From Sulfurimonas sp. SAG-AH-194-L11 (GTDB taxonomy: Bacteria; Campylobacterota; Campylobacteria; Campylobacterales; Sulfurimonadaceae): a DNA stretch of 64,000 bases. The position numbers and the translations under genes were made by a program. Every line of letters starts with the position of its first letter. Positions within the stretch are counted from its first letter, which is position 1. The notes under the pieces are model-generated. The model was given only the letters and a program-made list of their open reading frames with translations, was not told the DNA's origin and searched no databases. The stretch is from the NCBI RefSeq assembly GCF_029215995.1, contig NZ_JAEMVB010000004.1, forward strand, positions 1-64,000. The letters run 5' to 3'. Positions 30,562 through 48,514 of this stretch are shown in pieces.

Positions 30562-30960
30562 TTAATCGTCATCGTCATCGTCATTGAGACCAAGGTTCTC
30601 GATAAATTGCTCAGCTATAATGTCAGCTTTTTTATAAAATTTATCAGCGATACTTGGTATAAAATACTTTTGAGTTGTCTCTTTAAATAGTTTTAACCAC
30701 TGCTCAAATGTTTCTTTATATATAGGTCCAAGAAATGCATGAGGAGGAAAAGGATCGCCTTTATACCCAGGTTTACCAATCATCATTAGAAGCCAAAAGT
30801 CATCAAGTGTATGAAGGTGTTCATGCCATTTACCATTATCCAAGTCACTACCTAGCGAATTAATAAAGTAAGGTCCCAGTACATCATCTTTAAGTACAAG
30901 GGCATAAAACTCATGAACTAAGTGGTGTACACTATCTCGAGTAACTGTATCATATAGCAT
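30562..30960 (-). CDS. Group III-type truncated haemoglobin
   Basis: A 132-aa globin. FYALVLKDDVLGPYF, HLHTLDDFWLLMMIG, and PPHAFLGPIYKETFEQWLKLFKETT match the group III truncated globins (the C. jejuni Ctb type), where a proximal His lies in the last quoted segment's region. Such proteins bind O2 or NO; in Campylobacter they are tied to microaerobic or nitrosative conditions. The C-terminus ends in six aspartates from a short hexanucleotide repeat. It sits 23 bases after the LRR gene in the tig operon. Confidence 0.85.
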   Translation of the reverse strand: MLYDTVTRDSVHHLVHEFYALVLKDDVLGPYFINSLGSDLDNGKWHEHLHTLDDFWLLMMIGKPGYKGDPFPPHAFLGPIYKETFEQWLKLFKETTQKYFIPSIADKFYKKADIIAEQFIENLGLNDDDDDD

Positions 30961-33090: not shown

Positions 33091-33315
33091 CTATGCTTCG
33101 TGACCAGCCATTTCCATTGTAATACAATTACGGTCTAACATATCTGTACAAACGTATACACATAGTGCACACCCTTTACATCTATCTTCGTCTACCCAAG
33201 ATGTGTTACCATCTTTGTTAAACATAAGCGTATTTGCTTCTGGACAATATAGAGTACAAGTGTTACACTTATACTCAGCACACATATCTGAATTAACTTT
33301 TGCTACATAATACAT
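33091..33315 (-). CDS. forE: Ferredoxin-type E subunit of a five-subunit 2-oxoacid oxidoreductase (ForE-like)
   Basis: A 74-aa protein with two iron-sulfur cysteine sets: C12-x4-C17-x2-C20-x3-C24-P and C46-x2-C49-x2-C52-x3-C56, plus C64. It should carry two [4Fe-4S] clusters and pass electrons between ferredoxin and the TPP enzyme core. It ends a D-A-B-G-E operon, an order I recall for Hydrogenobacter forDABGE. The encoded protein is identical to that at 43660-43884 although the DNA differs at 24 synonymous positions. It may thus serve both enzymes. Confidence 0.88.
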   Translation of the reverse strand: MYYVAKVNSDMCAEYKCNTCTLYCPEANTLMFNKDGNTSWVDEDRCKGCALCVYVCTDMLDRNCITMEMAGHEA

Positions 33316-33327
33316 TTTTATTTTTCC

Positions 33328-34038
33328 TTATACGTCAAATCTAACGATTAACTCAGAACCGCTGATGTCTACAGAATCTGCCATTTTGAATGTTTGATTA
33401 ATAACATCCATATTAGCAGTAAGTAGTTGCTCTTTTTTCTTAAACTTTTTCTCTATTGCAGAGTCAAGTGTAGCAGTACCACCAGATGCAACAAATGAGT
33501 TTCCAAGGAATCTCTCTCTAACTGCAGCTTCAATATGCTTTGTAGTTACAAGTTTAGTAAGACCAAGAAGCATACCCATCATTGCCATATTAGTTGCAAG
33601 TTCAGTACCAGCAATTTTTTTAGCTAGTTTAGTTGCATCAAACTGAACAACAGTAGTATTTAAGTCATTAAGTACTTTTTCATCTTCTTCAGTAAGAACA
33701 TCATAGTCAGTATTAATGATAATTAAAGAATTTGGCTTTAGACCTGTGTAAAATGGCATAGTGTATGACTTACCATGTGTTACAACTTGTGAGTGGTAAA
33801 TCAGAATAATATCTGGATAAACAACTTCACCAACTTCATAAATAGGGTCCGAAGAAGCTCTAACATAAGCTTCAACAGGTGCCATTCTCTTTTCAGAACC
33901 AAAAAATGGTACTAGAGATGCATATTTACCTGCATTATCCATTGTTGCTCCAAGGATGTGAGCAGTTGTAACAACACCCTGACCACCTAGACCAGAGATT
34001 CTAATATTATATCTTTCTCTTTTTTTATTTTCAGCCAT
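33328..34038 (-). CDS. forG: 2-oxoacid:ferredoxin oxidoreductase gamma subunit (For-type operon)
   Basis: A 236-aa gamma domain of the PFOR superfamily. The N-terminus ISGLGGQGVVTTAHILG, FGSEKRMAPVEAYVRAS and the C-terminal GTELATNMAMMGMLLG are family signatures for the subunit that contacts the CoA-binding region. It ends in a short unique tail. It follows the beta subunit by one base and precedes forE by 12. It pairs with the gamma subunit of the second operon at 46678, with which it shares many motifs. Confidence 0.9.
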   Translation of the reverse strand: MAENKKRERYNIRISGLGGQGVVTTAHILGATMDNAGKYASLVPFFGSEKRMAPVEAYVRASSDPIYEVGEVVYPDIILIYHSQVVTHGKSYTMPFYTGLKPNSLIIINTDYDVLTEEDEKVLNDLNTTVVQFDATKLAKKIAGTELATNMAMMGMLLGLTKLVTTKHIEAAVRERFLGNSFVASGGTATLDSAIEKKFKKKEQLLTANMDVINQTFKMADSVDISGSELIVRFDV

Positions 34039-34039
34039 A

Positions 34040-34948
34040 TTAGTTTACCGCCTCTGCTTTACTTGCTTTTCTTGCTTTTCTTGCCGCTTTTTCTTCGCCT
34101 TCAACACGCTCGATTACTATTTTAGCTTCGTCAGTCATATACTCATCAAACTTGAATCTACCTCTACCTAATTCGATTGCATCAGCAAAAACGTCTTCTG
34201 TAGGAATAGAATACTCAATGTTACAAGAAGTGTAAGCATGAATAAAAGTTGGACCAACTTCACGTGCAACGAAGATTGCTCTTCTAATAACTTTTGCAGC
34301 TTGTTTGATGTTAGTTGGTGACATTCTTACAATATAAACACAACCAGCAGCTTTAGCTAACTCAGTCGCAGGCATTTTCTCGAAGTCTTTACCCATTGGA
34401 GCCATCTTAAGAACAGCACCCTTTGGAGACATACCAGATGATTGACCACCAGTGTTTCCATATACTTCATTGTCAAGCATGATTGTAGTAAATCTTTCAC
34501 CACGAATCCATGAGTGCATAGTCATTGAGAAACCGATATCCATAGTACCACCGTCACCGGCAATAGTAATAACATCTTTTTGCTTGTCAGGGAAACGTAA
34601 TCTAAATGCACGAGTAAGACCAGAAGCCATTGCATTTTGATCACCATAGTTACCATAGATAAATGGAACAGCAGCTTGAGAAATCGCAAGACGACCACAA
34701 CCAGCAGTACCTAATGTTACAGTCTCTTCCGGACATGGAAGTGAAGCAAAAATTAGTCTGATGTAGTAAGCCATCCAACAACCAGAACACATAGGGTGTT
34801 CTTCCATTAACTCTTTGAATTGACCCATGTTACCTGGACCAGCTTCTTCTTGTGTTTTTCCGAATGGACCGAAGTCAACTAACTCAACATAATCTTTTGG
34901 CAGGTATCTCTTAAATCTCTCTGCAGGAGTTACATATTTTAAACTCAT
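34040..34948 (-). CDS. forB: 2-oxoacid:ferredoxin oxidoreductase beta subunit, TPP-binding (For-type operon)
   Basis: A 302-aa TPP-binding subunit. HPMCSGCWMAYYIR (cluster or substrate-side cysteines), AGDGGTMDIGFSM (the GDG...N-type TPP/Mg motif, continuing to LDNEVYGNTGGQSSG) and TSCNIEYSIP are the beta-chain motifs. With alpha, gamma, D and E it should catalyse reversible oxidative decarboxylation of a 2-oxoacid, here presumably in the CO2-fixing direction. A lysine/alanine-rich tail (about 275-302) is unlike the second operon's beta chain. Substrate (2-oxoglutarate vs pyruvate) is inferred only from operon order. Confidence 0.9.
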   Translation of the reverse strand: MSLKYVTPAERFKRYLPKDYVELVDFGPFGKTQEEAGPGNMGQFKELMEEHPMCSGCWMAYYIRLIFASLPCPEETVTLGTAGCGRLAISQAAVPFIYGNYGDQNAMASGLTRAFRLRFPDKQKDVITIAGDGGTMDIGFSMTMHSWIRGERFTTIMLDNEVYGNTGGQSSGMSPKGAVLKMAPMGKDFEKMPATELAKAAGCVYIVRMSPTNIKQAAKVIRRAIFVAREVGPTFIHAYTSCNIEYSIPTEDVFADAIELGRGRFKFDEYMTDEAKIVIERVEGEEKAARKARKASKAEAVN

Positions 34949-34960
34949 AATATTTCCTTC

Positions 34961-36145
34961 TTATAATTTCATTTTGTGCTCAATACCGAGCGCTTCATAT
35001 ATTTCAAACATAATAAGTTCAACTGGAAGTGTCATACCACCAAAAACTCTTGGACCTTCATGAACAATACCACCATTAGGAATAGCAGCTTTTACTTCTG
35101 TACATAACCAACCAATGATATTGTGTTCAGGAACAATAACTGTTTTAGCAGTTTTTAATGCTTCACGAATTTCATCTCTTGGGAAAGGTCTAATTGCTCT
35201 TACTTTAACAAAACCAACACTTAGCCCATCTTCTTGAGCATATCTATGTGCCTCTCTAGCTTGAGCAGCTGCACAACCAGAAGCAAGAATCATAACATCA
35301 GAACCTGGATTTTGAACTTCAATTGGTCCACCAAGATACTCATAGATGTATTTCATTGCACGAGAGTTAGAATCCCAAATCTCTTGTTGCCATACTGAGT
35401 GAATTAAATAACTCATAAAGTTTGACTTTTGAACAGGAGCATCACGTTGGATTCTCGCTGGAGGAGTTTCATTGTCCATTGCTGGAACTGGTGAAGCTAC
35501 TGGATCAAATTCTTTGTACACTAAATCTTCTGACATCATGTTTACATAACCCTTAGCATGTGTTACGAAGAAACCTTCTGTAGCAACTGCAACTGGAATA
35601 TAAACGTCAACTTTCTCAGCAATAGCAAATGCTGCAAGTGTAAAGTCAAATGTATCTTGCTGATTTTCAGCATGTAACATAACTGCACCACAATGCATCA
35701 TATAAGCCATTTCTATATTATCAGGTTGAATTGATAATGGAGCATTAACAACACGAGTAAGAATTCCAAGTACTGCTGGAACTCTATGCCCTGGCCATGA
35801 AACAATCGCTTCTAAACCACGAAGTAAACCTGGTCCTGAAGTTGCTGTAAATAGACGAATACCAGCTCTTGATGCACCAGCAATTGCTGACATTGTACCA
35901 AGCTCTTCTTCTGCTCTATAATACTCTTTAATATGCCCTTGAGCAAATACATCACCAACTAGGTGCATTACTTCTGATTGTGGAGTAATAGGATACGCAA
36001 TTGCCATATCAACATTAGCTCTTTTAACAGCTTCTGCCATTGCTTGAGCACCTGTGATAAAGTGTTTCTCTCTTGGAGCCTCATGTAGAAGATGGTTCAT
36101 CTCTACTTGTTTTTTATTTAATACTGGTCTTGTGATTGCACTCAT
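34961..36145 (-). CDS. forA: 2-oxoacid:ferredoxin oxidoreductase alpha subunit (For-type operon)
   Basis: A 394-aa alpha chain with the pyrimidine-binding domain (AYPITPQSEVMHLVGD, ATSGPGLLRGLEAI with the glutamate and glycines of the PFOR N-domain) and the domain II end (VRAIRPFPRDEIREAL). It begins HEAPREKHFITGAQAM, closely like the alpha chain at 44608, so the two are paralogues. It follows forD by 12 bases. The order D-A-B-G-E, as I recall from the Hydrogenobacter 2-oxoglutarate enzyme, favours succinyl-CoA carboxylation, but a second pyruvate enzyme is possible. Confidence 0.9.
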   Translation of the reverse strand: MSAITRPVLNKKQVEMNHLLHEAPREKHFITGAQAMAEAVKRANVDMAIAYPITPQSEVMHLVGDVFAQGHIKEYYRAEEELGTMSAIAGASRAGIRLFTATSGPGLLRGLEAIVSWPGHRVPAVLGILTRVVNAPLSIQPDNIEMAYMMHCGAVMLHAENQQDTFDFTLAAFAIAEKVDVYIPVAVATEGFFVTHAKGYVNMMSEDLVYKEFDPVASPVPAMDNETPPARIQRDAPVQKSNFMSYLIHSVWQQEIWDSNSRAMKYIYEYLGGPIEVQNPGSDVMILASGCAAAQAREAHRYAQEDGLSVGFVKVRAIRPFPRDEIREALKTAKTVIVPEHNIIGWLCTEVKAAIPNGGIVHEGPRVFGGMTLPVELIMFEIYEALGIEHKMKL

Positions 36146-36157
36146 TTAATTTCTCCT

Positions 36158-36871
36158 TTATTCCGCATCAGTGATATGCTCACCCTTCTTTGTCATGATG
36201 AGACTTCTGTACTCACCATAATCAGCAGGTGATAATGTACTGTTGTCCTCTTTTGGTAAAGATGGATTTTCAGGTGGTAAAGTAGTTTCCCACTTAATGC
36301 CTAGTTTGTTTCTTTCTTCAATGATTATTTCTTTGAATTTAGTAATATCAGATGCATGTAAATCTCTAATAGATGCCATAGCTTCTTCATGTCCCATATA
36401 AGCACATAATGCAATAGTGTAACAACTAGTACCTGCACGAATCATTCTAAGTGTAAGGTTTGCATAGTGACAGTGAACTCCAACAAAGACACAAGCTTTG
36501 ATTTTGTTATCAAGGATTGTTAAGTTAGGGTGATTTGGGTTAATCTCAGCTTTAACATCAATCTTTGGATATTTAGGTCTGTAATCCGGCATTGGTATAA
36601 TTTTACAATTAGGAATTTCAGATGCAAGATCTAAAATAGCTGCAGATTTTTCTGCAACATCTTCTTTCCAATCCCACAGAACTTGAGGTCCAGGGAAAAT
36701 TGTTGGATTATCATTTGTAAGTAATGCAATTGCTGCATCTCTCATCGCCTCTTCTGGTGTTACAGTTTCTCCATAGAGTAAAGCTGAACCTTCTGGTGCA
36801 AGCTCAACTCCCATAGAAGGCGCGGACTGAGGCATATAACCTGCAGGTCCTACTGATATTTTTTTCGACAT
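36158..36871 (-). CDS. forD: D subunit of five-subunit 2-oxoacid oxidoreductase, long form (ForD-like)
   Basis: A 237-aa protein without iron-sulfur cysteine motifs. The core FPGPQVLWDW, IPMPDYRPKYPKIDVKAEINPNHPNL, VFVGVHCHYANLTLRMIRAG and MGHEEAMASIRDLH is shared with the shorter D subunit at 44023. I recall such proteins being named carbon monoxide dehydrogenase beta subunit family. It is longer than its paralogue, with extra sequence at both ends (about 25 residues N-terminal, 35 C-terminal). It opens the operon behind an AAGGAG site. Role inside the complex is not known to me. Confidence 0.8.
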   Translation of the reverse strand: MSKKISVGPAGYMPQSAPSMGVELAPEGSALLYGETVTPEEAMRDAAIALLTNDNPTIFPGPQVLWDWKEDVAEKSAAILDLASEIPNCKIIPMPDYRPKYPKIDVKAEINPNHPNLTILDNKIKACVFVGVHCHYANLTLRMIRAGTSCYTIALCAYMGHEEAMASIRDLHASDITKFKEIIIEERNKLGIKWETTLPPENPSLPKEDNSTLSPADYGEYRSLIMTKKGEHITDAE

Positions 36872-37549
36872 ATTTAACTCCTTATATTGTTAATGAAAAA
36901 GTTCTATAAAACACACTACGAAAGTGCATAAAACAGTTTAAATTCAGTCCCTAGTTATAAAATCTTAAAACTAGGTACAAAGCTCTTTAAAAGCATAGCA
37001 TTAGCTACTTTTTAAAAAAACTTGAATTTGTGCCTTATTGTATCGAAATAATCTTTAAATAGATTAAAATAATCCTTTAAATTTTCTCTTAAGAATATCA
37101 AGTATACTAAGTTTAGATTATAAATAAGAGAAAAATATTTATAATTTATAGGTTTATATATGGCTTATATCATAGGAAAACAGGGGTCTTGCAAGGGGTT
37201 ATTCCTATTTTTAGTGATAATAAGAGTTGCAACTATATAGAGAAGGAACTCTAATAATTTTGCTAACTCTAAATTGGCTTATTTGAGTATATTTGTTACA
37301 TTATTTCAGTCTAAAATACTCTAAATAATATCATTTGGGTATATTAGTTACACATTTATATCTAAGTATTGTGTTTACATTAATTTAACAAGCACTAGTG
37401 GCATTATTATTTGACTTTTAGTATAAAACATGTAAGCTTTTTATATGTAGTTATTGATGGTAAAGATTTTTTTATTTATTGGAAGTAGAAGTTAATGAGG
37501 GAATGTAAAGACTAAGAATTTCAAAGTCTTTACATCTTATTAGATTTGT
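36872..37549. other. 678-bp AT-rich region upstream of the for-type operon, no gene seen
   Basis: No supported coding sequence; a 26-codon ATG frame at about 37160 lacks a good ribosome site. The region probably holds the for promoter and a long leader. Visible structure: CCTAGTT/AACTAGG inverted repeat (36950-36975), ATAGGAA/TTCCTAT (37172-37208), and two copies of a motif like TATTTGTTACA (ATTTGTTACA at 37291-37300, a variant ATTAGTTACAC at about 37343-37353). ATTTGTTAC copies also occur ahead of porE. Confidence 0.5.
37503..37535. terminator. 11-bp hairpin after the dab operon
   Basis: ATGTAAAGACT pairs perfectly with AGTCTTTACAT across an 11-base loop, 15 bases beyond the stop of the 105-aa gene on the minus strand. 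The following T-run is poor, so termination may be partial and some for transcription may come from the dab operon. Confidence 0.55.
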
Positions 37550-37867
37550 TTAGTTTCCACCAGCATCTTTTGGTGGTTTTTCGCCAGCATCAAAGCCGAT
37601 TACAACACCACTTCTACTAACAAGCTCACTTGATGTCTCAACATCATCATCATCGTCTTCAGTAGGTCTAACAGTACTATGAATAATAATCTTATCATTA
37701 TAGTCGACAGCTTGAAAGTAATGAGTCATACAAAAATTTTGATTCATTAAACACTCTAAAACACGTGCTTTATTAATCATATCTTCTCTTGTCTCAAATT
37801 TCATATTATTTTTTATGTCACTTTTTAAAAAACAAGCACATTCTTTTTCAATTTCTATTGTATACAT
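37550..37867 (-). CDS. Hypothetical 105-aa protein, last gene of the dab operon
   Basis: A small soluble protein starting MYTIEIEKECACFLKSD, with two early cysteines (C10, C12), more at about 38 and 46, an acidic run (EDDDDDVE, about residues 71-78) and a flexible Gly/Pro C-terminus. No family is recognised. It starts 27 bases after dabA with a good AAGGAAAG site, so it is likely expressed with the carbon pump. It could be a regulator or assembly factor of DabA, but that is only from position. Confidence 0.7.
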   Translation of the reverse strand: MYTIEIEKECACFLKSDIKNNMKFETREDMINKARVLECLMNQNFCMTHYFQAVDYNDKIIIHSTVRPTEDDDDDVETSSELVSRSGVVIGFDAGEKPPKDAGGN

Positions 37868-37894
37868 TTTCTTTCCTTTTGTAATTGTATTGGG

Positions 37895-40768
37895 TTAAAA
37901 TTCTTTGATAATTTTAAAGTCACCATACTCATATGAGTAAACTTTTTTAGCTTTTTTATCAATTATTATTGGACGAATCCATTCATTCAGTATAAACTCT
38001 TTTGCTACTGAGTTCTCTACAGCTTTTCCTACGGTTTCTAAAGGTGCTTCCATATAGGTAAGAAGTCTTATTGGTTCATGGTAGGCCTCGCCTTCTAAAA
38101 GTACTGACTGTGTAGGAAGACCTATTTTTAGATCACTATAGTTACCATTAAAGACACCAATTTTCGAGACGACATTATGATAAACCTTTGAACCCGCACC
38201 ATAAATAGTATTATCTACAGTAGAAAAGTAGTGTTCAAGATTTATCCATTCACCTACCACTAGTGGTCCGTTAAAAATTCGTGTAAGTATATCAGAATTT
38301 TCATTATCTAGCTTATGGTCATATGAGTGTAAAAAAAGTCTATTTCCAAATGACATATGTTTTATGGACTCTCTTGGACCTGCAAATACACCCATATTTC
38401 CTGCTAATCCCCATTCTGGTCTTGTTTCTGACCAGTCCATAGACTTAATCATAATATCATTTTCATTATTAGTGTATGGTAATTGCTTAATTCTTTCACA
38501 ACGTGCAATAGAAGAAGCTTTTTTAAACTCTTTCATTACTATAGAAAATCTTTGTTTCTCTTTGTAGTTTAAAATATCTGTATCGTAAAACTCTATCTCA
38601 TCTGTTGATGTTATATGAAGTGTTGGCATAAATTTTACATCATCAGGGATAATGATACCTTTTTTTGCTATTTCTTCTCTTACATCTTGAGAGTTTCCTA
38701 TCATACAGAGTGCTCTGTTATTAGGAAGACTACTACTACCTCCACATGCACCACAGTCAAGTGCAGATTCAAAAGGATTGTTGTCTGAAACACTCATGTG
38801 TCCTGATAAAATCACAAACTCAGGAAAATTGTCTACTTGACCTATCATTGTTAAGTAGTTGTATAAATACTCTACTTTTTCTTCTAGTGTAAACCCAACT
38901 TTAGATAATTTTTGTTTTTGAAATTTATAATCATCGACTGAAATATTGTAGTTTTCTTTTAATTTAGTTAAGAGTTCAGAAGGTACTTCTACAGAAAGAT
39001 TTCCATCTAAAATTAGATGGTCTCTTATAGCTTGAATATCCTTTGTTGAATACTTTTTAGAACTATTACTTAGAAGTGCTTCACTTATAATGTGAATATG
39101 CAATTTATTAACATACATCTCTATCTCTTCATTAGAGAGTTTATCCATTGTGTAAGTAGTTTTAGGTTTTTTAGCTTTAAAGTTAGAAAAGAATTTATTT
39201 GTTTTTTGTGGTAAAAATGTTTTTCCAAAAAGATTTATACCAAATATCCAACCAATCGCTTCAACCATTATATAAGGAGTATAAGGATTGTTTTTTAGAT
39301 CACTAATAACTTTTTTAGTAGTTTTGTTAATGGTTTTTTTAGCTTTATACTCTTCATCAGACTCAACAGCTAATTCAAAAACTATATTTCCTGGTGTTAA
39401 AACTGCTGGACAAAGTATCTGTTCATGTGCTTTGTCAAACTCCACAAAAGCGATAGGGAAGCCTAAAAAACCTCCAGCACCATATGTTGTATAGTTTCCA
39501 CTACTCTCAATAGCCCGTCTCATAGTTTCTGATCTTACATCTAAACATAAGGTGGCAGATGCAAGTGCTCTTTCTTGTTGGGGTGCTTCGCCTAAGTCCA
39601 TTTCATTTATAAAAGATTGAATATAAGTATCTTCAAGTGACTTCATCCATATATATCCCTCTTCTTCTCTGAGTACTTCCATAATTTTGGCAAGTTCTAC
39701 AAGAGGTATATCACTGTTTTTTAGTATGTCACTTGAAAGATGAACCTGTTTAGCATCAAGATGAAGCTCTTCTTGTACATATCTTTCTAAAATATCCTCA
39801 TAGTTATCAGAATCTTCCATAGCATCTATGTATTTTCCAGGTAAGTTATATTTAAATTTAATCATTTTAAGTATAACAAATGCTGCATTTTCTAAAGAAT
39901 AATCATGCAAAAGATCAAAATTATTAATTTTTCTATGCTGTAAGTATGCTAATTCATAATAGAGTCTAATCGCCATATAATCCATAAGAGAAGAGGGATA
40001 CTTCTGCTGTGAATAATATTCAGGATCTTCAGAACGGTACTTAATAAAACCTGCCCAACCATGTAGTTTTAAAATATGTGTTAAAAGGTATCTCTCTTTA
40101 TTCTTTACATGAAGTTTTTCTAATGCTTCTTCTACAAAAGTTGTAGAGTCATATGCATACTCAAAGTCTTCGTAAAGTTTGAAAGTTTCGAACATTCCGA
40201 ACTCTCTATTTGGCATAGATATAGTGGTTTGCTCTTCATCTAAAAAACGTGAGATATACTCTATGATACTTTTTTCAATAACCTCTTTGTCATCACGATA
40301 AAAAAGAATATCATTAATCTCATAAAGTGTCATATGTTTTGTTATCTGTTTTAACCATCTTTCTTTATTATGGTACGAAAATTGATCATCAAGATATGCT
40401 ATTAAATCTTCGTCAACTTCATGATCCTTCGAATCGGCACAACTTCTAAGGTGATTCCATTGTGGGTTTACTTCTATAAGGCACTTCATCGCCAAATCGT
40501 AATACTCTTCAAGCCCATCAACTTCTAGAATTTTTTTAAGATTTTCTTCTAAAATGTCGTGAGATATTTTTCCTTCATTATAGAATTTTAAATAATAAGA
40601 TGGCTCCATATAAACCTTGCCACCATATATTTTTTTTGCTTTATTGACACCATCCCTAAAAGATAGATGTTCAAAACCTTTTAAAGGATTGTGGTGAATA
40701 AATGATCCAATAGGCCAGTAGTGTGGAATATTATTCTTAATTGCATCAAGTTTTTTCGCTATGCCCAT
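37895..40768 (-). CDS. dabA: DabA, beta-carbonic-anhydrase-like subunit of an inorganic carbon pump (DUF2309)
   Basis: A 957-aa DUF2309 protein. The predicted zinc-active site has C408 and D410 (LCLDVRSETMRRAIESSG), H657 (LSGHMSVSDN) and C672 (LDCGACGG), matching the Cys/Asp, His, Cys arrangement reported for DabA. In the known system DabA and the membrane protein DabB use cation flow to turn CO2 into bicarbonate directionally and build an internal carbon pool. The start overlaps the end of the membrane gene upstream by 10 bases. In this window it lies between two CO2-using 2-oxoacid synthases, so its carbon probably feeds the reverse TCA cycle. Confidence 0.93.
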   Translation of the reverse strand: MGIAKKLDAIKNNIPHYWPIGSFIHHNPLKGFEHLSFRDGVNKAKKIYGGKVYMEPSYYLKFYNEGKISHDILEENLKKILEVDGLEEYYDLAMKCLIEVNPQWNHLRSCADSKDHEVDEDLIAYLDDQFSYHNKERWLKQITKHMTLYEINDILFYRDDKEVIEKSIIEYISRFLDEEQTTISMPNREFGMFETFKLYEDFEYAYDSTTFVEEALEKLHVKNKERYLLTHILKLHGWAGFIKYRSEDPEYYSQQKYPSSLMDYMAIRLYYELAYLQHRKINNFDLLHDYSLENAAFVILKMIKFKYNLPGKYIDAMEDSDNYEDILERYVQEELHLDAKQVHLSSDILKNSDIPLVELAKIMEVLREEEGYIWMKSLEDTYIQSFINEMDLGEAPQQERALASATLCLDVRSETMRRAIESSGNYTTYGAGGFLGFPIAFVEFDKAHEQILCPAVLTPGNIVFELAVESDEEYKAKKTINKTTKKVISDLKNNPYTPYIMVEAIGWIFGINLFGKTFLPQKTNKFFSNFKAKKPKTTYTMDKLSNEEIEMYVNKLHIHIISEALLSNSSKKYSTKDIQAIRDHLILDGNLSVEVPSELLTKLKENYNISVDDYKFQKQKLSKVGFTLEEKVEYLYNYLTMIGQVDNFPEFVILSGHMSVSDNNPFESALDCGACGGSSSLPNNRALCMIGNSQDVREEIAKKGIIIPDDVKFMPTLHITSTDEIEFYDTDILNYKEKQRFSIVMKEFKKASSIARCERIKQLPYTNNENDIMIKSMDWSETRPEWGLAGNMGVFAGPRESIKHMSFGNRLFLHSYDHKLDNENSDILTRIFNGPLVVGEWINLEHYFSTVDNTIYGAGSKVYHNVVSKIGVFNGNYSDLKIGLPTQSVLLEGEAYHEPIRLLTYMEAPLETVGKAVENSVAKEFILNEWIRPIIIDKKAKKVYSYEYGDFKIIKEF

Positions 40769-41514
40769 GTTAGTATCTCCTTAACCCCATAAATACTTAA
40801 TAGCACGAGTGAAACTATTATGGTAAAATGAGTAATTTTTTCTTTAAAATTTAAATCAACATAATGTATGTTCGGATTTTTTTTCCCAAATATTGACTTC
40901 TCTAACACACGCATGGAAACTAGAAAATTTCCAGCATAAAGAGTAATAACTATAACTAGCCATAAAGCATTTGCTTCGCTATTAAAAATATGTGTTAAAA
41001 AAAACAGAGAGTTTGGTAGTGGTGGGTAGAGTCCTATAGTTATGAGATACACTGTGATATGGATTCCTATTAAGGGAGTCGCTAATGTAATTCCTCTAAC
41101 ATAAAGATAGTTTGCACTTCCATAATGTTTTTCATAGAAACTAGCGATAGCATAAATACCAAGAAGCGATACCAGTAGTGATAAACTATAGAATGCACCA
41201 TGTTCTTCAAAGAGGATGAAAAAAGGTGCATTCATAAAGATAAAATAATATCCTAGTTTATAAAAGTTTGTTGTTTGTGTTGCACGATATATAGAATATA
41301 AAGCAGTGAAAAATGAGACAAGAACAAAAGAAGTCATATACTCTCTATCAGTAAAGAAAGAGATAATTACTCCAGTTAGTAAAAGAAATCCACTCACAAT
41401 AAAGATAGATTTTGCACTAAAACTATCACTTTTTTCTAAAAGAATAAAATATGGTACACCACCAGAAAGGAGTAAAAATACAATATTTAAAAATACAATA
41501 TTATCAGTAATCAT
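40759..41514 (-). CDS. Membrane protein between dabB and dabA, antiporter-like (provisional DabX)
   Basis: A 251-aa hydrophobic protein with about eight helices. Its end, GLYPPLPNSLFFLTHIF followed by a long helix and LRxLEKSIFGKK, resembles the C-terminal part of NuoM/NuoN-type proton-pumping subunits, but the N-terminal antiporter core motifs are absent. It overlaps dabB by four bases (ATGA) and dabA by ten, so all three should be made in step. I do not recall a third gene in the described DabAB operons. A subunit that completes or tunes the cation channel is the best guess; a split-off piece of DabB is the main alternative. Confidence 0.75.
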   Translation of the reverse strand: MITDNIVFLNIVFLLLSGGVPYFILLEKSDSFSAKSIFIVSGFLLLTGVIISFFTDREYMTSFVLVSFFTALYSIYRATQTTNFYKLGYYFIFMNAPFFILFEEHGAFYSLSLLVSLLGIYAIASFYEKHYGSANYLYVRGITLATPLIGIHITVYLITIGLYPPLPNSLFFLTHIFNSEANALWLVIVITLYAGNFLVSMRVLEKSIFGKKNPNIHYVDLNFKEKITHFTIIVSLVLLSIYGVKEILTWA

Positions 41515-43118
41515 AGTTTTCCTTTTTTAGAACTATTAAATATTTCAAAATAGTATCCTTCTTTTACAAGTAGTTTATAAAATGACCATTTTGATTTAGT
41601 TGATTTTTCTTTATTTGCTGGTAGTGTGATAAAATGCTGTTTGTATATAAATAGCCAGCCTACAATCATTACAAGAGATAATACAAGTAATGCACTCACT
41701 AAAGTTACATTGAGTGTTGCAGCTTTATAAAAGAGTAGAGAGTCATGACCATAAAGGAAATGTTCAAGAGAAAGACCAATAAACTCATAGCTAAAGAGTA
41801 CTATAATAAAAGAACTTATTATTCCAAAGATTGCTTTGATTGAATCAAATTTAGATACCTTGAAAAAAGATAGAAAAAGCTGTGTTCCTGTAAGCCAAGC
41901 AAAGGCTAAAATAACGATTGCAGCATTAAATTCAAAAAACTCTGGTGCAAGTATCATTTTTATACCAATAAATACAACTACAGGTACAATTGTAAAAAGT
42001 GCTATAAGTTTAAATGTTTTGCTACTTTTATATTTTGTGTTCTCCTCTAGAAATGTCTTATGTGAAAGACGTTCTGGAATATTTGGATCTTTTCTTGCAT
42101 ACTTTATAATACTACCTGACTCTAAGAAGAGCGAAGCTTTGAAAATTCCATGAACTATGAGGTGATAGATTGCAAGACTAAAAGCACCTAAACCTATCTC
42201 CATAATCATGTAGCCCATTTGACCTACAGTTGAGTAACCAAGAGAGCGTTTAATGTCTGATACAACAAGCATAAGCATAGAAGCGAAAATTGCGGTAAAA
42301 AGACCAATAACAAAAGCGATATTTAAAACCATAGGTGTAAGTATAAGTAAATAAGCCATTTTATTAAGTAAGATTCCTCCAACATTTACAACACCTGCAT
42401 GCATTAAACCTGACACTGGAGTAGGGGCTTCGGATGTATAAGGTAGCCATATGTGAAAAGGAACAATAGCTGACTTCATCATAGCGGCTAATAGATAGAG
42501 TAAACCTACTGTGAGTACCATTGGGTCGGTAACTGGACTTTGCGACATTACTAACCATTTTTCTTTGAGCACTAATAAATCAAAACTTCCAAAAGTTTGG
42601 TATGTTAATATAACTGCAAGTAGAAAAACGAAGTCAGCACCTTTATGAATATACATAGTCCATCTTGCATTCTTTACGGCAGTTTTAGAACCTACATTAA
42701 AAGAAACAAGAAGATATAAACCAACACTCATAAGTTGCCATGCTAAAGCAAGTACAATAAGATTATTACTCATAACAAGTAAATAGATAGAAGCAAAAAT
42801 AAAGTTTAAAAGTATAAAAAATCTTCTATAACCTGCTTCATCCCACATATACTTTGTTGCATATTTTCGTATAACTAAACCAAGTATCGCTACGTATGGA
42901 ACAAGAATAGCTGAGAGTTCATTGTAAACAAGTAAACCATTGAATCCAACTATTTGTGCATCATTACTGATTACATAGTATGTACCATATAATGCAAGTA
43001 AGGCTATCATACTTGATAGAATTATGCTTACCTTTGGTATGAGCTCTTTTTTCCTGATAAAAAATAACAAAAATGCTATTAATATGGGTATACCCGGAAT
43101 GAGTAATATTATTTTTTC
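41511..43118 (-). CDS. dabB: DabB, NuoL/ND5-like membrane subunit of the inorganic carbon pump (GTG start)
   Basis: A membrane subunit of the proton_antipo_M family. PLNAR-like core: ALAWQLMSVGLYLLVSF, KGADFVFLLA, AMMKSAIVPFHIWLPYTSEAPTPVSGLMHAGVVNVGG and SDIKRSLGYSTVGQMGYM, with the conserved Lys and the charged helix-break residues. I choose GTG at 43118 because AGGAG lies 5-6 bases upstream and the protein then starts in the first helix; an ATG 45 bases earlier has no ribosome site. The 535-residue length suits DabB. It should carry the cation flow that powers DabA. Confidence 0.9.
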   Translation of the reverse strand, partial: EKIILLIPGIPILIAFLLFFIRKKELIPKVSIILSSMIALLALYGTYYVISNDAQIVGFNGLLVYNELSAILVPYVAILGLVIRKYATKYMWDEAGYRRFFILLNFIFASIYLLVMSNNLIVLALAWQLMSVGLYLLVSFNVGSKTAVKNARWTMYIHKGADFVFLLAVILTYQTFGSFDLLVLKEKWLVMSQSPVTDPMVLTVGLLYLLAAMMKSAIVPFHIWLPYTSEAPTPVSGLMHAGVVNVGGILLNKMAYLLILTPMVLNIAFVIGLFTAIFASMLMLVVSDIKRSLGYSTVGQMGYMIMEIGLGAFSLAIYHLIVHGIFKASLFLESGSIIKYARKDPNIPERLSHKTFLEENTKYKSSKTFKLIALFTIVPVVVFIGIKMILAPEFFEFNAAIVILAFAWLTGTQLFLSFFKVSKFDSIKAIFGIISSFIIVLFSYEFIGLSLEHFLYGHDSLLFYKAATLNVTLVSALLVLSLVMIVGWLFIYKQHFITLPANKEKSTKSKWSFYKLLVKEGYYFEIFNSSKKGKL

Positions 43119-43659
43119 CACTGTAACTCCTGAAGTAATTAAATAGTATGAGACTTTTAGCATTTATATTTTTAAGCCAAGTTAAATATATAAATGAAAT
43201 GTTTATAGTAAAGCTGAAATTTAGTGATTATATTACTAAACTACATATATATACATAACGATAGACTAGTGTTAAAGGTGTAAAAAGTTACACTATTTGT
43301 TACATAAAGATAAATTCTTTATCATTTGTTACCCTTTGTAGCATAAGAAAGTTTGGCCCCAAAACATTATTTATGCTATTTTGTTAAATAGCCCATAAAG
43401 TCGCTATTACATTAGGTAAAATCTCCACGAAATAGATAAAATAAGATTTTAATCCATTAAATTAAAGAGAAATAAAAGGTTATTTGAGTAAAGTGCTATT
43501 CGAGAAACATAAATTATAGTTGATAGAAATGTATTGCAAATACTTTGAGATGTCAGTTTAAAGACATTTGATGGTTTTTTTAATGCTACATGCTATTGTT
43601 GGCTTTTAGTAAAATAGAAGCTGATACCAATGTTTAAGTCATCATTAAGGAGTAAATAA
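43119..43659. other. 541-bp divergent control region between dabB and porE, no gene seen
   Basis: No supported open frame. It must hold promoters for both the dab operon (minus) and the por operon (plus). It contains the GTGTAA-N4-TTACAC palindrome (43278-43293) and two ATTTGTTAC repeats (43295-43303 and 43324-43332). An AAGGAG ribosome site precedes porE. I saw no sigma-54 GG-N10-GC element. Confidence 0.55.
43278..43293. promoter_or_regulatory. Perfect palindrome GTGTAA-N4-TTACAC, candidate operator
   Basis: Six-base arms with a four-base spacer, the geometry of Crp/Fnr-family sites, though the sequence is not the Fnr consensus TTGAT-N4-ATCAA. It lies about 160 bases from the dabB start and 370 from porE. 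An ATTTGTTACAT copy begins two bases after it. Regulator unknown. Confidence 0.45.
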
Positions 43660-43884
43660 ATGTATTATGTAGCAAAAGTTAATTCTGATATGTGTGCTGA
43701 GTATAAATGCAACACATGTACTTTATATTGTCCAGAGGCTAATACGCTAATGTTCAATAAAGATGGAAATACATCTTGGGTAGACGAAGATAGATGTAAG
43801 GGTTGTGCACTTTGTGTGTATGTATGTACTGATATGCTTGATCGTAATTGTATTACGATGGAAATGGCTGGTCACGAAGCGTAG
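43660..43884 (+). CDS. porE: Ferredoxin-type E subunit (PorE-like), identical in protein to the copy at 33091
   Basis: The 74-aa product has the same two [4Fe-4S] cysteine sets (C12/17/20/24 and C46/49/52/56) and is identical residue for residue to the E protein of the other operon. Comparing codons I count 23 changed codons (24 bases), all silent. Here the gene comes first, in order E-D-A-B-G, which I recall for the Hydrogenobacter pyruvate enzyme. A 138-base gap separates it from porD, so it could also be expressed alone. AAGGAG precedes the ATG. Confidence 0.88.
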   Translation: MYYVAKVNSDMCAEYKCNTCTLYCPEANTLMFNKDGNTSWVDEDRCKGCALCVYVCTDMLDRNCITMEMAGHEA

Positions 43885-44022
43885 ATCCAGCAGAGTTGTA
43901 CACGTAGTGTATATGTATAGATTTCTTATCTTAGTGTAAACTTTGATTAGAAAGCTAAATACAAATAAAATAAATCTATAGTTAATATTTAATTATAATG
44001 TAAAAAATTTATAGGAGAACTT

Positions 44023-44592
44023 ATGGCAAATCAAGGCCCCGCGTATTATTCACCGTATCCTGCGGCAATATATGAAGGTGTAATTACACCACCAGAAGGA
44101 AAAGCACTTTTATTAGAAGAAGTGGTAGATGAAGAAATTGCAATGAGAGAAATCGCAAAGCAAATGTTAACTAAAGAGAATGCAACTATTTTCCCTGGAC
44201 CACAAGTATTATATGGTTATAACGATGAAGCAAAGAAAAAAGCGACTCTTATCAAAGAGATGGCTGAAGTTCTTAATGCTAATATGATTCCAATGTATGA
44301 CTATAGACCAAAGTATCCTAAAATTGATGCTGAAATTGAAATCAATCCGAATCACCCAAACTTAACAATTTGGCATAACAACATTAAAGCAGCAATTTTT
44401 ATTGGTGTTCACTGTCATTATGCTAATGTTGCATTAAAAATGGTTAGATGTGAAACAGATTGTTACACGATCGCTATTTGTGGTTTGTCAGGGCATGAAG
44501 ATGCTATGGCTACATTAAGAGATCAGCATTCTTCAGAGCTTGAGAAATTTATCAAGATAGCTAGAGAAGTAAAAGCAGAACTAAAATTATAA
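44023..44592 (+). CDS. porD: D subunit of five-subunit 2-oxoacid oxidoreductase, short form (PorD-like)
   Basis: A 189-aa paralogue of the D protein at 36158. Shared blocks are FPGPQVLYGY, IPMYDYRPKYPKIDAEIEINPNHPNL, IFIGVHCHYANVALKMVRC and GHEDAMATLRDQH. No cluster-binding cysteine motif is present although a CxxxC (VRCETDC) occurs. The protein ends in a short Lys/Glu helix where the other paralogue has a longer tail. AGGAGA lies before the ATG. It is 15 bases from porA. Its job in the complex is not known to me. Confidence 0.8.
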   Translation: MANQGPAYYSPYPAAIYEGVITPPEGKALLLEEVVDEEIAMREIAKQMLTKENATIFPGPQVLYGYNDEAKKKATLIKEMAEVLNANMIPMYDYRPKYPKIDAEIEINPNHPNLTIWHNNIKAAIFIGVHCHYANVALKMVRCETDCYTIAICGLSGHEDAMATLRDQHSSELEKFIKIAREVKAELKL

Positions 44593-44607
44593 GAAAAGGA
44601 GAACTAA

Positions 44608-45807
44608 ATGGCATCAATTAAAGATATGACAGATACACATAACTGGTCTGGACAGAAATTAGTTACAGCAGATCACATGCTTTTCGAAGCACCACGTGAA
44701 AAGCACTTCATGACTGGTTCTGAAGTTTTAAAAGAAGCGGTAAAAAGATGTACAGTTGATGCATCAGTATCTTATCCAATTACACCACAATCAGAAGCAG
44801 CACACCTTATCGGTGAGCTATGGGCTGAGGGTTATGTTGGTACATACTTCCGTGGGGAAAATGAGTTTGGTGTTATGTCAGAAGTTGCAGGTTGTGCAAT
44901 GGCAGGGGCTAGAACTATTACTACGACATCAGGTCCTGGTACACTTAGAGCAATGGAAAACTTTCCACAATGGTCTGGTACAAGAATTCCTTGTCAACTA
45001 ATCCTTATGGCTCGTGGTATTAACTCACCACTTACTATTCAACCAGATAACTTAGAAGTTTCTTTCATGTTAGAAACTGGTTGTATGATTTGGTATGCTG
45101 AAAATGTACAAGAGTTATTTGACATGAGTATCGCTGCATTTATCGTGGCAGAAAAGCCTGACGTTCATGTGCCTATTATTACTGTTGTTGATGGTTTCTT
45201 TGTTTCTCACACACGTGAGTCTGTAATGTTACCAGCTGATGATATCGCACTTTTACCTTATGAGCCATACAAATCTCCATTACCTCCGATTGATTCTGAA
45301 ACTCCTCCAGGACGTTTTCTAAGAGATCCATTTGTAATGAAGTCTAACTATATTTCTTATGCAACTCATGCTTCATGGCAGTGGGAAGTAAGATCTGCAG
45401 TTGAACGTTCACGTCCATATGCTAAGCATTTCCTTAAAGGTCTTGTTCATGTTACTGGAACGCCTGATGCTGAAATCGCATTTGTTACATGTGGTACTGC
45501 TTCTCATCAAGCAAAAGAAGCTGAAAGAGAATTAATGAAGCATGGTATTAAAACTAAGGTTATTAAACTTAGAACAATTAGACCATTTCCAAAAGAAGAA
45601 CTGCTTGCAGAACTTGAGGGTGTTAAACATATTTTCGTACCTGAGTTCAATGTTGTTGGTTGGTTAGAAAAAGAAGTAAAAACTGCTCTTCATAACAACC
45701 ACACTGCAAAAGTTATTGGTGGACCTAGAGTTGCTGGTGGAATGAGTCTACCTGCTGAAGCAATTCTTAAAGAAGTATTTGAACACATTAACGTAGAAGG
45801 AAAATAA
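44608..45807 (+). CDS. porA: 2-oxoacid:ferredoxin oxidoreductase alpha subunit (Por-type operon)
   Basis: A 399-aa alpha chain with SYPITPQSEAAHLIGEL, TTSGPGTLRAMENFPQW, PLTIQPDNLEVSFMLETG and KLRTIRPFPKEELLAEL, the PFOR domain I and II signatures. It closely resembles the alpha chain of the other operon (34961), so the two came from one duplication. In the anabolic direction a pyruvate synthase adds CO2 to acetyl-CoA with reduced ferredoxin; the porEDABG-like order supports this, but specificity cannot be proven from the residues. Confidence 0.9.
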   Translation: MASIKDMTDTHNWSGQKLVTADHMLFEAPREKHFMTGSEVLKEAVKRCTVDASVSYPITPQSEAAHLIGELWAEGYVGTYFRGENEFGVMSEVAGCAMAGARTITTTSGPGTLRAMENFPQWSGTRIPCQLILMARGINSPLTIQPDNLEVSFMLETGCMIWYAENVQELFDMSIAAFIVAEKPDVHVPIITVVDGFFVSHTRESVMLPADDIALLPYEPYKSPLPPIDSETPPGRFLRDPFVMKSNYISYATHASWQWEVRSAVERSRPYAKHFLKGLVHVTGTPDAEIAFVTCGTASHQAKEAERELMKHGIKTKVIKLRTIRPFPKEELLAELEGVKHIFVPEFNVVGWLEKEVKTALHNNHTAKVIGGPRVAGGMSLPAEAILKEVFEHINVEGK

Positions 45808-45808
45808 G

Positions 45809-46678
45809 ATGGCAATTGATATATATAAAATCAACCCTGAATTCCGTGACATTATGCCTAAAGAGATTATTGATCTTGAGGAAAATGCAACATGGGCTCA
45901 AAACCAAAAGAAACCACGTGGTATTAAAGAGATGCCAGACACTAAAGAGATTTTAGAAGAACACTCTTTATGTGCTGGTTGTCCAGAAGCTGCTGCACTT
46001 AGATATGTACTTGCTGCATTACCTAAGCCAGAAGAGACTATTATTGTTAACTCAACTGGTTGTACTTCTTTGATGTTCCCACACATCGCTCTTCATACTG
46101 TTCACTCACTTTTTGGTAATCAAAATGCTGTTGCAACTGGTATTAAAAGAGTTCTTGACTGGAGATTTCCAGATATAGAAAAAGATGTTGTTGTTTTAGC
46201 AGGAGACGGTGCTACTGTTGATATCGGTCTTGACTATACACTTCAGTCTTTCTTTAGACAAGAAAATATCACTACAATCTGTTTTGATAATGAAGTTTAT
46301 GCAAATACTGGTGGACAAGAATCAGGTGCAACTCCAAAAGGTCAAGTTTTCAAAATGGCGCCTACTGGTAAGAAGTTCGAAAAAGTAAAAATGTGGGAAC
46401 TTGCTACTACTGCTGGTTGTCACTATACTATGAACATGACTGCATCTGCTCCTAAAGCGGTTGCTAAAGCTGTTCGTGAAGCTATTTTAGTTGCAAGAGA
46501 AATCGGACCAACATTCCTTAACATTTACACTCCTTGTATCCTTGAGATTGGACTAAGTGCAAATGAAGGTCTTGGCGAAATGAAAGATCAAGATAAAGAT
46601 AGATTTGCATCTTACAAGTTTGTTTCTCCAGAAGCAGAAGAGTTCTTGAAAAAATGTAAAGCAGAAGGAAAGTTATAA
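45809..46678 (+). CDS. porB: 2-oxoacid:ferredoxin oxidoreductase beta subunit, TPP-binding (Por-type operon)
   Basis: A 289-aa beta chain: LCAGCPEAAALRYV, NSTGCTSLMF, LAGDGATVDIGLDY and FDNEVYANTGGQESGATPKG give the TPP/Mg site and Cys signatures. TGCTS is closer to pyruvate enzymes than the AGCGR of the other beta chain. The last 40 residues lack the Lys/Ala tail of that paralogue. It begins one base after porA and overlaps porG by one base, so all subunits are translated together. Confidence 0.9.
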   Translation: MAIDIYKINPEFRDIMPKEIIDLEENATWAQNQKKPRGIKEMPDTKEILEEHSLCAGCPEAAALRYVLAALPKPEETIIVNSTGCTSLMFPHIALHTVHSLFGNQNAVATGIKRVLDWRFPDIEKDVVVLAGDGATVDIGLDYTLQSFFRQENITTICFDNEVYANTGGQESGATPKGQVFKMAPTGKKFEKVKMWELATTAGCHYTMNMTASAPKAVAKAVREAILVAREIGPTFLNIYTPCILEIGLSANEGLGEMKDQDKDRFASYKFVSPEAEEFLKKCKAEGKL

Positions 46679-47400
46679 TGGCTAAAGATTCAATCAAAGT
46701 AAGACTTCCGGGTCTTGGTGGACAAGGTGCAGTTACAGCTGCACATATTGCTGCAACTGCAGCTGATACTGATGGTTACTTCGCTGTTTCTAATCCATTT
46801 TTTGGTGCAGAAAAGCGTATGGCTCCTTCAGAGTCTTATGCAAGAATAGGTACTGTGCCTATTTACGATAGAGGGGAAGTAATTTACCCAGATATCGTTA
46901 TGATTTTCCACCCACAAGTTATTACTATGGGTAAATCATATACTATGCCTTTTTATGCTGGTATCAAAGATAATGGTCTTGTTATCATTAACTCTGACAT
47001 CGATCTTTTAACTGATGTTGATAAGAAAATTCTTGCTGACAAAAATGTTAAAGTTCTTACTCATGACTTTACTAGATTTGCAATTGAGCAAGCTGGTACT
47101 GAGCTTGCTACTAATATGGCAATGCTTGGTGCATTATTTGGTGCTCTTGGTACAATCTCTAAGCCTGCTATTGAAGAGGGAATCAAAGATAGATTTCTTA
47201 AGAAATACACAGCTTCTGGTGGTACTGCTACACTCGATTCAGTTATTGAAAAGAAATTTAAGAAAAAGCAAGAGCTTATTGAGAAAAACCTCTTAACTGC
47301 ATCTGCTGCTTATGATTTAACTGCTGCATGGGCTAAAGAAGTTGGACTAGAACCAATTCTTGAGCCTTCAAAGCACAATAACGGTAACGTTAAGAAATAA
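46678..47400 (+). CDS. porG: 2-oxoacid:ferredoxin oxidoreductase gamma subunit (Por-type operon)
   Basis: A 240-aa gamma chain with LPGLGGQGAVTAAHIAAT, FFGAEKRMAPSESYARIG, QVITMGKSYTMPFYAGIKDN and GTELATNMAMLGALFG. It parallels the gamma protein at 33328 along nearly the whole length. Its start overlaps the porB stop. A strong hairpin follows, so it ends the operon. Confidence 0.9.
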   Translation: MAKDSIKVRLPGLGGQGAVTAAHIAATAADTDGYFAVSNPFFGAEKRMAPSESYARIGTVPIYDRGEVIYPDIVMIFHPQVITMGKSYTMPFYAGIKDNGLVIINSDIDLLTDVDKKILADKNVKVLTHDFTRFAIEQAGTELATNMAMLGALFGALGTISKPAIEEGIKDRFLKKYTASGGTATLDSVIEKKFKKKQELIEKNLLTASAAYDLTAAWAKEVGLEPILEPSKHNNGNVKK

Positions 47401-47539: not shown

Positions 47540-48514
47540 ATGATACAGTCATTTATAATTACAGGATTTTTAGGTGTTGGTAAAACAACAATGCTAACCA
47601 ATACAGTCAAAGAGCATTTTGGAGATAAAAAAGTAGCTATTGTAGTGAATGAATTTGGTGATATTGGTATCGATGGAGATATTCTTAGTAATGTTTATAG
47701 CGAAGTACTAGAGATTTCTGAGGGTTGTATCTGCTGTCAACTTTCTGAAGAATTTGAGAGTGGTGTTATGGAAATCATTCAAAAGTATGAGCCAGAGATT
47801 ATTTTTGTAGAGACTTCAGGTGCATCTGAGCCTTTTCCTATTTTTATGTCTATGCAAAACCTTGGCGTTACGGTTGAGGGTATTATCTGTGTAATTGATT
47901 CTAAGAACTTAGACTCTTATAAAGATAACTCTACTGCAAAGTATCAAGTTGGTGGCTCAAACATCATTGTCTTAAATAAAACAGATCTTGTAACTGAGAC
48001 ACAACTAGAGTCTGTAAAACAACAAGTTATAGAGATGAAAGAGTCTCATAATATAAAAAATAACCTTACAGGTGAGACAGTTTTTAATAACTATGTTATC
48101 ACTCAAGCAAAAGAGGGTCTTGTAAGTAAAGATATTTTTGAGGGCGTTTATAAAATTGATGAGATTATTGGACTAGCAAAAGATTATCAACACCCAGAGC
48201 ATGCACAGGGTGATTCTATTACTCAGCAGGTAGCTTACTTAAAAGAAGATATAAAATTTGAAGATGTAGATAGAATTTTAAATAATATTCCAAAGAGTAT
48301 TTATAGAGTAAAGGGAGTAGTAAAAGTGACAGATGTAGCTAATCCTATTGTTATCAACTACTCTTTTGGTAATGTTTCATTTGAAGAACTTGATGAATAT
48401 GCACAGCCATCTATTATGATATTTATAGGTGAATCTATCCTTGATGATGTTGAGATATTATGTCAAGAGTACTCTTATCTTAACACCCCAAAGTTTAAAC
48501 TGACTTCATTTTAA
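47540..48514 (+). CDS. CobW/G3E-family GTPase (metallochaperone type)
   Basis: A 324-aa GTPase. GFLGVGKTTML (P-loop), EGCICCQLSEEF (the CxCC metal site), ETSGASEP and NKTDLV (guanine specificity) are the G3E markers, with a shorter C-terminal domain. Such proteins deliver zinc, cobalt or another metal. It has its own AAGGAAA site and is separated from porG by a terminator, so linkage to the oxidoreductase is positional only. It could serve the zinc enzyme DabA or the flavin/GTP-CH genes downstream; no evidence decides. Confidence 0.85.
   Translation: MIQSFIITGFLGVGKTTMLTNTVKEHFGDKKVAIVVNEFGDIGIDGDILSNVYSEVLEISEGCICCQLSEEFESGVMEIIQKYEPEIIFVETSGASEPFPIFMSMQNLGVTVEGIICVIDSKNLDSYKDNSTAKYQVGGSNIIVLNKTDLVTETQLESVKQQVIEMKESHNIKNNLTGETVFNNYVITQAKEGLVSKDIFEGVYKIDEIIGLAKDYQHPEHAQGDSITQQVAYLKEDIKFEDVDRILNNIPKSIYRVKGVVKVTDVANPIVINYSFGNVSFEELDEYAQPSIMIFIGESILDDVEILCQEYSYLNTPKFKLTSF

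Follow-up and report, generated by a model that had tools for sequence, protein, structure and literature searches.

An island linking five-subunit 2-oxoacid:ferredoxin oxidoreductases to a Dab inorganic-carbon pump in Campylobacterota and Aquificota

The reverse tricarboxylic acid (rTCA) cycle is usually pictured as limited to low-oxygen, CO2-rich places. Here we describe an island in Sulfurimonas sp. SAG-AH-194-L11 (contig NZ_JAEMVB010000004.1, positions 1–64,000; this whole 64-kb stretch is termed the window) in which two five-subunit 2-oxoacid:ferredoxin oxidoreductases (OFORs), For and Por, flank a dab operon encoding an inorganic-carbon pump. The closest enzymes are the five-subunit 2-oxoglutarate (OGOR) and pyruvate (POR) oxidoreductases of Hydrogenobacter thermophilus and Aquifex aeolicus, the gene orders of which we take to be forDABGE and porEDABG; the orders found here are likewise D-A-B-G-E for For and E-D-A-B-G for Por. 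Passages of Molari et al. 2023 (PMC10066037) cite the five-subunit OGOR as the form used by H. thermophilus under oxygen. The same study describes U. Sulfurimonas pluma, a small-genome plume Sulfurimonas with five-subunit, Aquificales-like enzymes that has all the rTCA genes and expresses them highly; its main text mentions neither bicarbonate, inorganic carbon nor carbonic anhydrase (CA). The pump DAB2 is a CO2 hydrase driven by the proton motive force, with the reverse reaction prevented (PMC13144422). Passages of Scott et al. 2024 (PMC10880623) state in general terms that genes for transporters or CAs are found next to rTCA genes; they contain nothing on a five-subunit For/Por and Dab island, its spread, the exclusion of beta-CA or a shared operator. 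Already known, then, are the five-subunit enzymes of U. S. pluma and Sulfurovum sp. AR, the biology of DAB and, generally, the co-location of inorganic-carbon and rTCA genes. In the literature, including the available text of these sources, we found no description of a for-dab-cobW-por island spanning two phyla, its link to the absence of beta-CA, in-place cassette exchange, a shared palindrome or concerted evolution of epsilon subunits; some of the linkage may be visible in Molari et al.'s synteny figure and in Fig. 2 of Scott et al.

The island enzymes have the same five subunits, CO_dh-like delta subunit and two-cluster epsilon subunit as those of H. thermophilus and A. aeolicus, and resemble the five-subunit, Aquificales-like products of the 2-oxoglutarate oxidoreductase (OOR) and POR operons of U. 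S. pluma and Sulfurovum sp. AR (PMC10066037). They differ from the former pair in that the Campylobacterota operons regularly have a dab operon and a CobW gene as neighbours, and in that the For and Por epsilons are near-identical within each genome. Compared with DAB1 of Halothiobacillus neapolitanus (hneap_0907–0909), DAB2 and MpsAB, the island Dab has the same zinc ligands, a NuoL-like DabB and, as in DAB1, a third small membrane protein; unlike them, it is linked to rTCA carboxylases rather than to RubisCO and carboxysomes, and is accompanied by an extra CxC protein, orf105. We consider it probable that the locus is a horizontally moving 'oxic rTCA' island, combining O2-tolerant carboxylases with a Dab bicarbonate supply for oxygen-rich, CO2-poor water. 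Its three operons occupy positions 33091–47400 as forDABGE (minus), dabB-X-dabA-orf105 (minus) and porEDABG (plus), which bears out the layout proposed in the initial annotation; all 14 open reading frames (ORFs) are uninterrupted and end where that annotation placed them. The features are as follows.

33091–33315, minus: forE, epsilon subunit, 74 aa, eight Cys for two [4Fe-4S] clusters
33328–34038, minus: forG, gamma subunit, POR domain (Pfam)
34040–34948, minus: forB, beta subunit, thiamine pyrophosphate (TPP)-binding, CxxC (Pfam)
34961–36145, minus: forA, alpha subunit, POR_N and PFOR_II (Pfam)
36158–36871, minus: forD, delta subunit, CO_dh PF02552, marker of the five-subunit type
37550–37867, minus: orf105, small protein of 105 aa, invariant CxC...C..H
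37895–40768, minus: dabA, PF10070, zinc ligands C408, D410, H657 and C672
40759–41514, minus: third dab gene, 251-aa hydrophobic membrane protein (ORF; relatives' dab operons)
41511–43163, minus: dabB, NuoL/Mrp-like, PF00361
43327–43343, no strand: palindrome TGTTACCCTTTGTAGCA (TGYTAC-N5-GTARCA) in the dabB–porE divergent intergenic region
43660–43884, plus: porE, epsilon subunit, two-cluster ferredoxin type
44023–44592, plus: porD, delta subunit, CO_dh PF02552
44608–45807, plus: porA, alpha subunit (Pfam domains)
45809–46678, plus: porB, beta subunit (Pfam domains)
46678–47400, plus: porG, gamma subunit (Pfam domains)
47540–48514, plus: CobW/COG0523-type GTPase, GCICC motif, regular island neighbour in both phyla

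In an even draw of 397 genomes across the class, only 2 have a strong PF02552 match; in the window's genus 20 of 135 genomes have the domain. All 20 of these five-subunit genomes contain DabA, against 2 of the other 115 (Fisher p = 6e-22, uncorrected for relatedness); in those two the dab genes are only distantly related (dabA identity 29–38%) and beta-CA is present. Eighteen of the 20 carry dab on one contig with for or por, mostly within 15 kb; G398 and G405 have it on a short contig separate from for/por (G, L and C label the genomes, fetched loci and contigs of the analysis set). Gene order varies among them: for-dab-por in the window, G409, G413, G429, G490 and G496; dab|por-cobW-for in G402, G406, G448 and G428; for-tig-...-dab|por in G404 and G495; dab-...-tig-for with por elsewhere in G266 and G481; and por-dab with for on another contig in G488. 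G397 has two por operon copies (L090:1002–4705 and L091:5634–9337), one on either side of its dab and for operons. A chimeric assembly was rejected, given that the identical layout occurs in independent genomes, including that of the single cell Sulfurimonas sp. SAG-AH-194-C21 (L115, the same as G490); together with the variant orders in the single-contig chromosomes G402, G404 and G406, this argues against an assembly accident.

Scanning named genomes with PorA as the anchor yielded 61 loci. Of the 44 from Campylobacterota, which come from Sulfurimonas, Sulfurovum, Sulfuricurvum and records labelled Sulfurospirillum or Arcobacter, 34 have dab no more than 10 kb from porA; the same holds for 5 of the 6 from Aquificota, where the order in Hydrogenothermaceae is for-cobW-dab(−)-por(+). 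Eight of the ten Campylobacterota exceptions, and the sole one in Aquificota, are contigs cut beside por. No dab was seen near the ten five-subunit loci of Nitrospirota and Nitrospinota, most of which are cut by contig ends. The linkage therefore survives rearrangement and spans two phyla; confinement to only one strain, which the initial annotation had named as a way for its idea to fail, is not what we found, because the arrangement recurs in most of the 20 five-subunit genomes of the genus, in Sulfurovum, in Sulfuricurvum and in Aquificota (Hydrogenothermaceae). The por-dab part is also present in Sulfurovum sp. AR (L143). A Sulfurovum-like por fragment (82%) occurs in a metagenome-assembled genome labelled Thiorhodovibrio (L145), by transfer or mis-binning.

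The delta subunits match PF02552 with 147 bits (ForD) and 162 bits (PorD), and POR_N, PFOR_II, TPP_enzyme_C, POR and two-cluster ferredoxin domains were found in the For and Por subunits (Pfam). The claim that these are two five-subunit OFORs was thus well founded, and domains, gene orders and the PorA tree mark them as Aquificota-type. Orthology, gene order and previous work (PMC10066037, PMC10052474) point to For as the 2-oxoglutarate and Por as the pyruvate enzyme, both oxygen-tolerant. For and Por are the sole POR_N proteins in the near-complete island genomes G409, G413, G266, G481 and G495, and likewise in G490 (88% complete); proteins of the size of four-subunit PorA and OorA are kept in six of six control genomes, and G402, G404 and G406 have five-subunit and four-subunit sets side by side. 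Because those five near-complete genomes contain no other OFOR, For and Por should be the CO2-fixing pair in an rTCA organism, and are likely to be the rTCA synthases wherever other POR_N proteins are missing. The window's own genome (G000; 1.81 Mb, 72 contigs with the window on C34, 79% complete) additionally encodes a NifJ-like 1,195-aa protein on contig C13 (L088, G000:C13:22933–23625) and a 618-aa fused alpha–gamma type oxidoreductase on contig C14 (L089, G000:C14:20017–20661).

ForE and PorE of the window are identical as proteins and 89% identical as DNA. Identity between For and Por epsilons averages 98% within a genome and 92% between genomes, is higher within the genome in 17 of 18 cases, and extends to odd C termini. 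Judged from these comparisons, the two epsilon subunits are undergoing concerted evolution, which suggests an electron-donor interface common to For and Por.

DabA (PF10070, 668 bits) and the NuoL-like DabB (PF00361, 135.8 bits; both Pfam) are encoded in the same operon. We take C351, D353, H524 and C539 (H. neapolitanus numbering) to be the beta-CA-like zinc ligands of DabA. C408, D410, H657 and C672 of the window protein align with these residues of H. neapolitanus DabA2 (9rd0), such that the zinc site is kept. The 251-aa protein probably corresponds to the small membrane subunit of DAB1, and with this extra membrane gene the operon is counted as three-subunit and DAB1-like (PMC13144422). 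Downstream of dabA in Campylobacterota islands, orf105 is often duplicated, the second, diverged copy ending in GSCGC; it has no Pfam match at E ≤ 1, and its fold, predicted at low confidence (predicted local distance difference test (pLDDT) 69, predicted template-modelling score (pTM) 0.47), has no significant PDB match. The CxC...C..H motif suggests that orf105 may bind metal. A P-II signalling gene adjoins dabB in G402, G404, G406 and G448 (positions L092:9773–10168, L093:18962–19348 and L095:9871–10266).

In the PorA tree, Campylobacterota form one clade beside Hydrogenothermaceae (100/100), with Nitrospirota and Nitrospinota outside. By PorA, the nearest relatives of the window's genome carry the label Sulfurimonas. 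The PorA proteins of Sulfurovum NORP77 and HLG01 nest among those of Sulfurimonas, indicating horizontal transfer in agreement with Molari et al. 2023 (PMC10066037). Within Sulfurimonas, the distances of dabA, dabB and the third gene rise together (rho 0.77–0.87) and are uncorrelated with those of por or for (rho about 0–0.2); between the window and G409, for example, identity is 98% for PorA and 63% for DabA. Two DabA clades (100/99 and 100/100) fill the same island slot, and G428 has both. On this phylogenetic evidence the dab cassette has been swapped in place, and its replacement with the position unchanged argues for selection on a dab operon there. For CobW, distances correlate with those of porA (rho 0.80) but not with those of dabA (0.03), and we therefore did not adopt CobW as a zinc chaperone for DabA; as the companion of por in both phyla, this GTPase possibly serves metal delivery. 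A globin-like gene (30562–30960; weak Bac_globin match) is close to for, and similar genes flank the island in several relatives; it is possibly O2-related.

The distribution of CAs bears on which form of carbon Dab supplies. Of the 20 island genomes 17 lack beta-CA (PF00484), compared with 15 of the 115 other genomes of the genus (p = 3e-10; this and the following p values are uncorrected for relatedness); when completeness is at least 90% the figures are 8 of 11 against 2 of 68 (p = 3e-7), and Sulfurovaceae show the pattern independently, with 20 of 25 against 28 of 150 (p = 4e-9). Beta-CA is present in none of the three genomes with Sulfuricurvum loci (L126–L128) and in two of six Aquificota. 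Alpha-CA is not depleted (15 of 20 island genomes, 63 of 115 others of the genus); the copy in the window's genome has a lipobox, which makes it an extracytoplasmic lipoprotein, and we rejected it as a cytosolic enzyme. According to passages of Scott et al. (PMC10880623), CO2-reliant cells must obtain HCO3− through a cytosolic CA or through a transporter, and it is wasteful to have the two together; MpsAB and CA are interchangeable in Escherichia coli and Staphylococcus aureus, as stated in passages of PMC6689103. The beta-CA pattern fits this rule and argues against a role for Dab in supplying CO2 to For and Por.

The 496-bp divergent region between dabB and porE contains TGTTACCCTTTGTAGCA at 43327, the only perfect TGYTAC-N5-GTARCA in the 64 kb (0.01 expected). 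Allowing at most one mismatch, the 630 kb of island loci contain the motif 30 times, against 3.7 in Markov shuffles, an excess that among close relatives is partly shared ancestry because the motif was picked on the same sequences. The stronger point is its recurrence across different gene orders: it is mostly between dab and por, and also near forD in G402, G406, G448 and G428. Matches in a sigma-70 promoter scan were no commoner than in shuffles. It is plausible that dab, por and for are under one regulator acting through this candidate operator.

The initial annotation had proposed a dedicated CO2-supply module for the rTCA cycle. The For/Por–Dab linkage at the core of that idea is conserved; the supply of CO2 is the part that lacks support. 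DAB hydrates CO2, reportedly without the reverse reaction, making HCO3− its product (PMC13144422), For and Por consume CO2, and most island genomes lack beta-CA, so that direct feeding of CO2 to For and Por is not supported; Dab as a supply of HCO3− in place of beta-CA fits better. In the mechanism that we propose, oxygen-tolerant, Aquificota-type 2-oxoglutarate and pyruvate synthases would replace the native four-subunit enzymes at the carboxylation steps of the rTCA cycle, working in vivo in the CO2-fixing direction and taking dissolved CO2 directly. Driven by the proton motive force, the three-subunit DAB1-type complex would convert incoming CO2 by hydration to HCO3− in the cell, and this pool would stand in for the product that a cytosolic beta-CA usually makes passively, supplying phosphoenolpyruvate/pyruvate carboxylase, acetyl-CoA carboxylase and carbamoyl-phosphate synthesis. 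An extracytoplasmic alpha-CA may bring CO2 to the membrane, and a single regulator at TGYTAC-N5-GTARCA probably governs the divergent transcription of dab and por. What would unite these parts is that water rich in oxygen is also poor in CO2.

A CO2-concentrating mechanism in the strict sense would have a pump genetically linked to carboxylases, as is the case here, and a local CA returning CO2 to the carboxylase, for which most island genomes offer no beta-CA and some a predicted gamma-CA homologue. That Dab raises internal inorganic carbon to give For and Por their CO2, released by gamma-CA or spontaneous dehydration with no compartment, would suit the strict linkage, the shared candidate operator, the gamma-CA homologue and the abundance of both DabAB and the five-subunit enzymes in the Aquifex proteome (PMC10052474). 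It nevertheless appears unlikely, as beta-CA is absent rather than recruited, the output of DAB is HCO3− and, in passages of Scott et al. (PMC10880623), free CO2 leaks out where there is no compartment. Horizontal transfer, seen in the Sulfurovum NORP77 and HLG01 PorA proteins, and the independent history of dab and por could also mean that each unit is useful in oxic water and that they are neighbours through joint transfer only, with neither functional nor regulatory coupling; we regard this as quite improbable, because the linkage outlasts several rearrangements and in-place replacement of dab, the palindrome is common to different gene orders and beta-CA is absent in two families. The enzymes are reversible in principle, and For and Por might oxidize pyruvate and 2-oxoglutarate catabolically with Dab serving only anaplerosis, but orthology and gene order match the autotrophic Aquificota enzymes, a related species is reported to have rTCA genes at high expression (PMC10066037) and other OFORs have been lost in relatives, all of which makes this hardly credible.

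Several observations weigh against the bicarbonate-supplying island that we prefer. Among island genomes, three in Sulfurimonas and about five in Sulfurovaceae still have beta-CA, the association tests for beta-CA and DabA ignore phylogeny, and the window's genome is only 79% complete. A gamma-CA homologue with its three histidines is present in G000, G402, G413 and G266; we accordingly rejected a complete lack of cytosolic CA, and the predicted protein may provide such activity. In A. aeolicus, dab is not adjacent to for/por, judged by locus numbers (PMC10052474), and the motif was not found in Aquificota loci. The rTCA cycle of the window's organism is presumed from its relative U. S. pluma, for which all rTCA genes are reported (PMC10066037).

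Our most far-reaching proposal, offered tentatively, is that Campylobacterota and Aquificota have in common a transferable, co-regulated, compartment-free carbon-acquisition island for oxygen-exposed rTCA, in which a proton-driven vectorial CA would share one regulator with O2-tolerant ferredoxin-dependent carboxylases, to which it is thereby coupled, and would replace the cell's beta-CA. The island's hosts are marine sulfur bacteria and some hot-spring relatives. It extends inorganic-carbon pumps beyond the Calvin cycle to another pathway, and the exclusion of beta-CA suggests which form of carbon the Dab pump serves. A conserved mobile island pairing O2-tolerant enzymes with such a pump would provide a testable account of rTCA bacteria in open oxygenated seawater.

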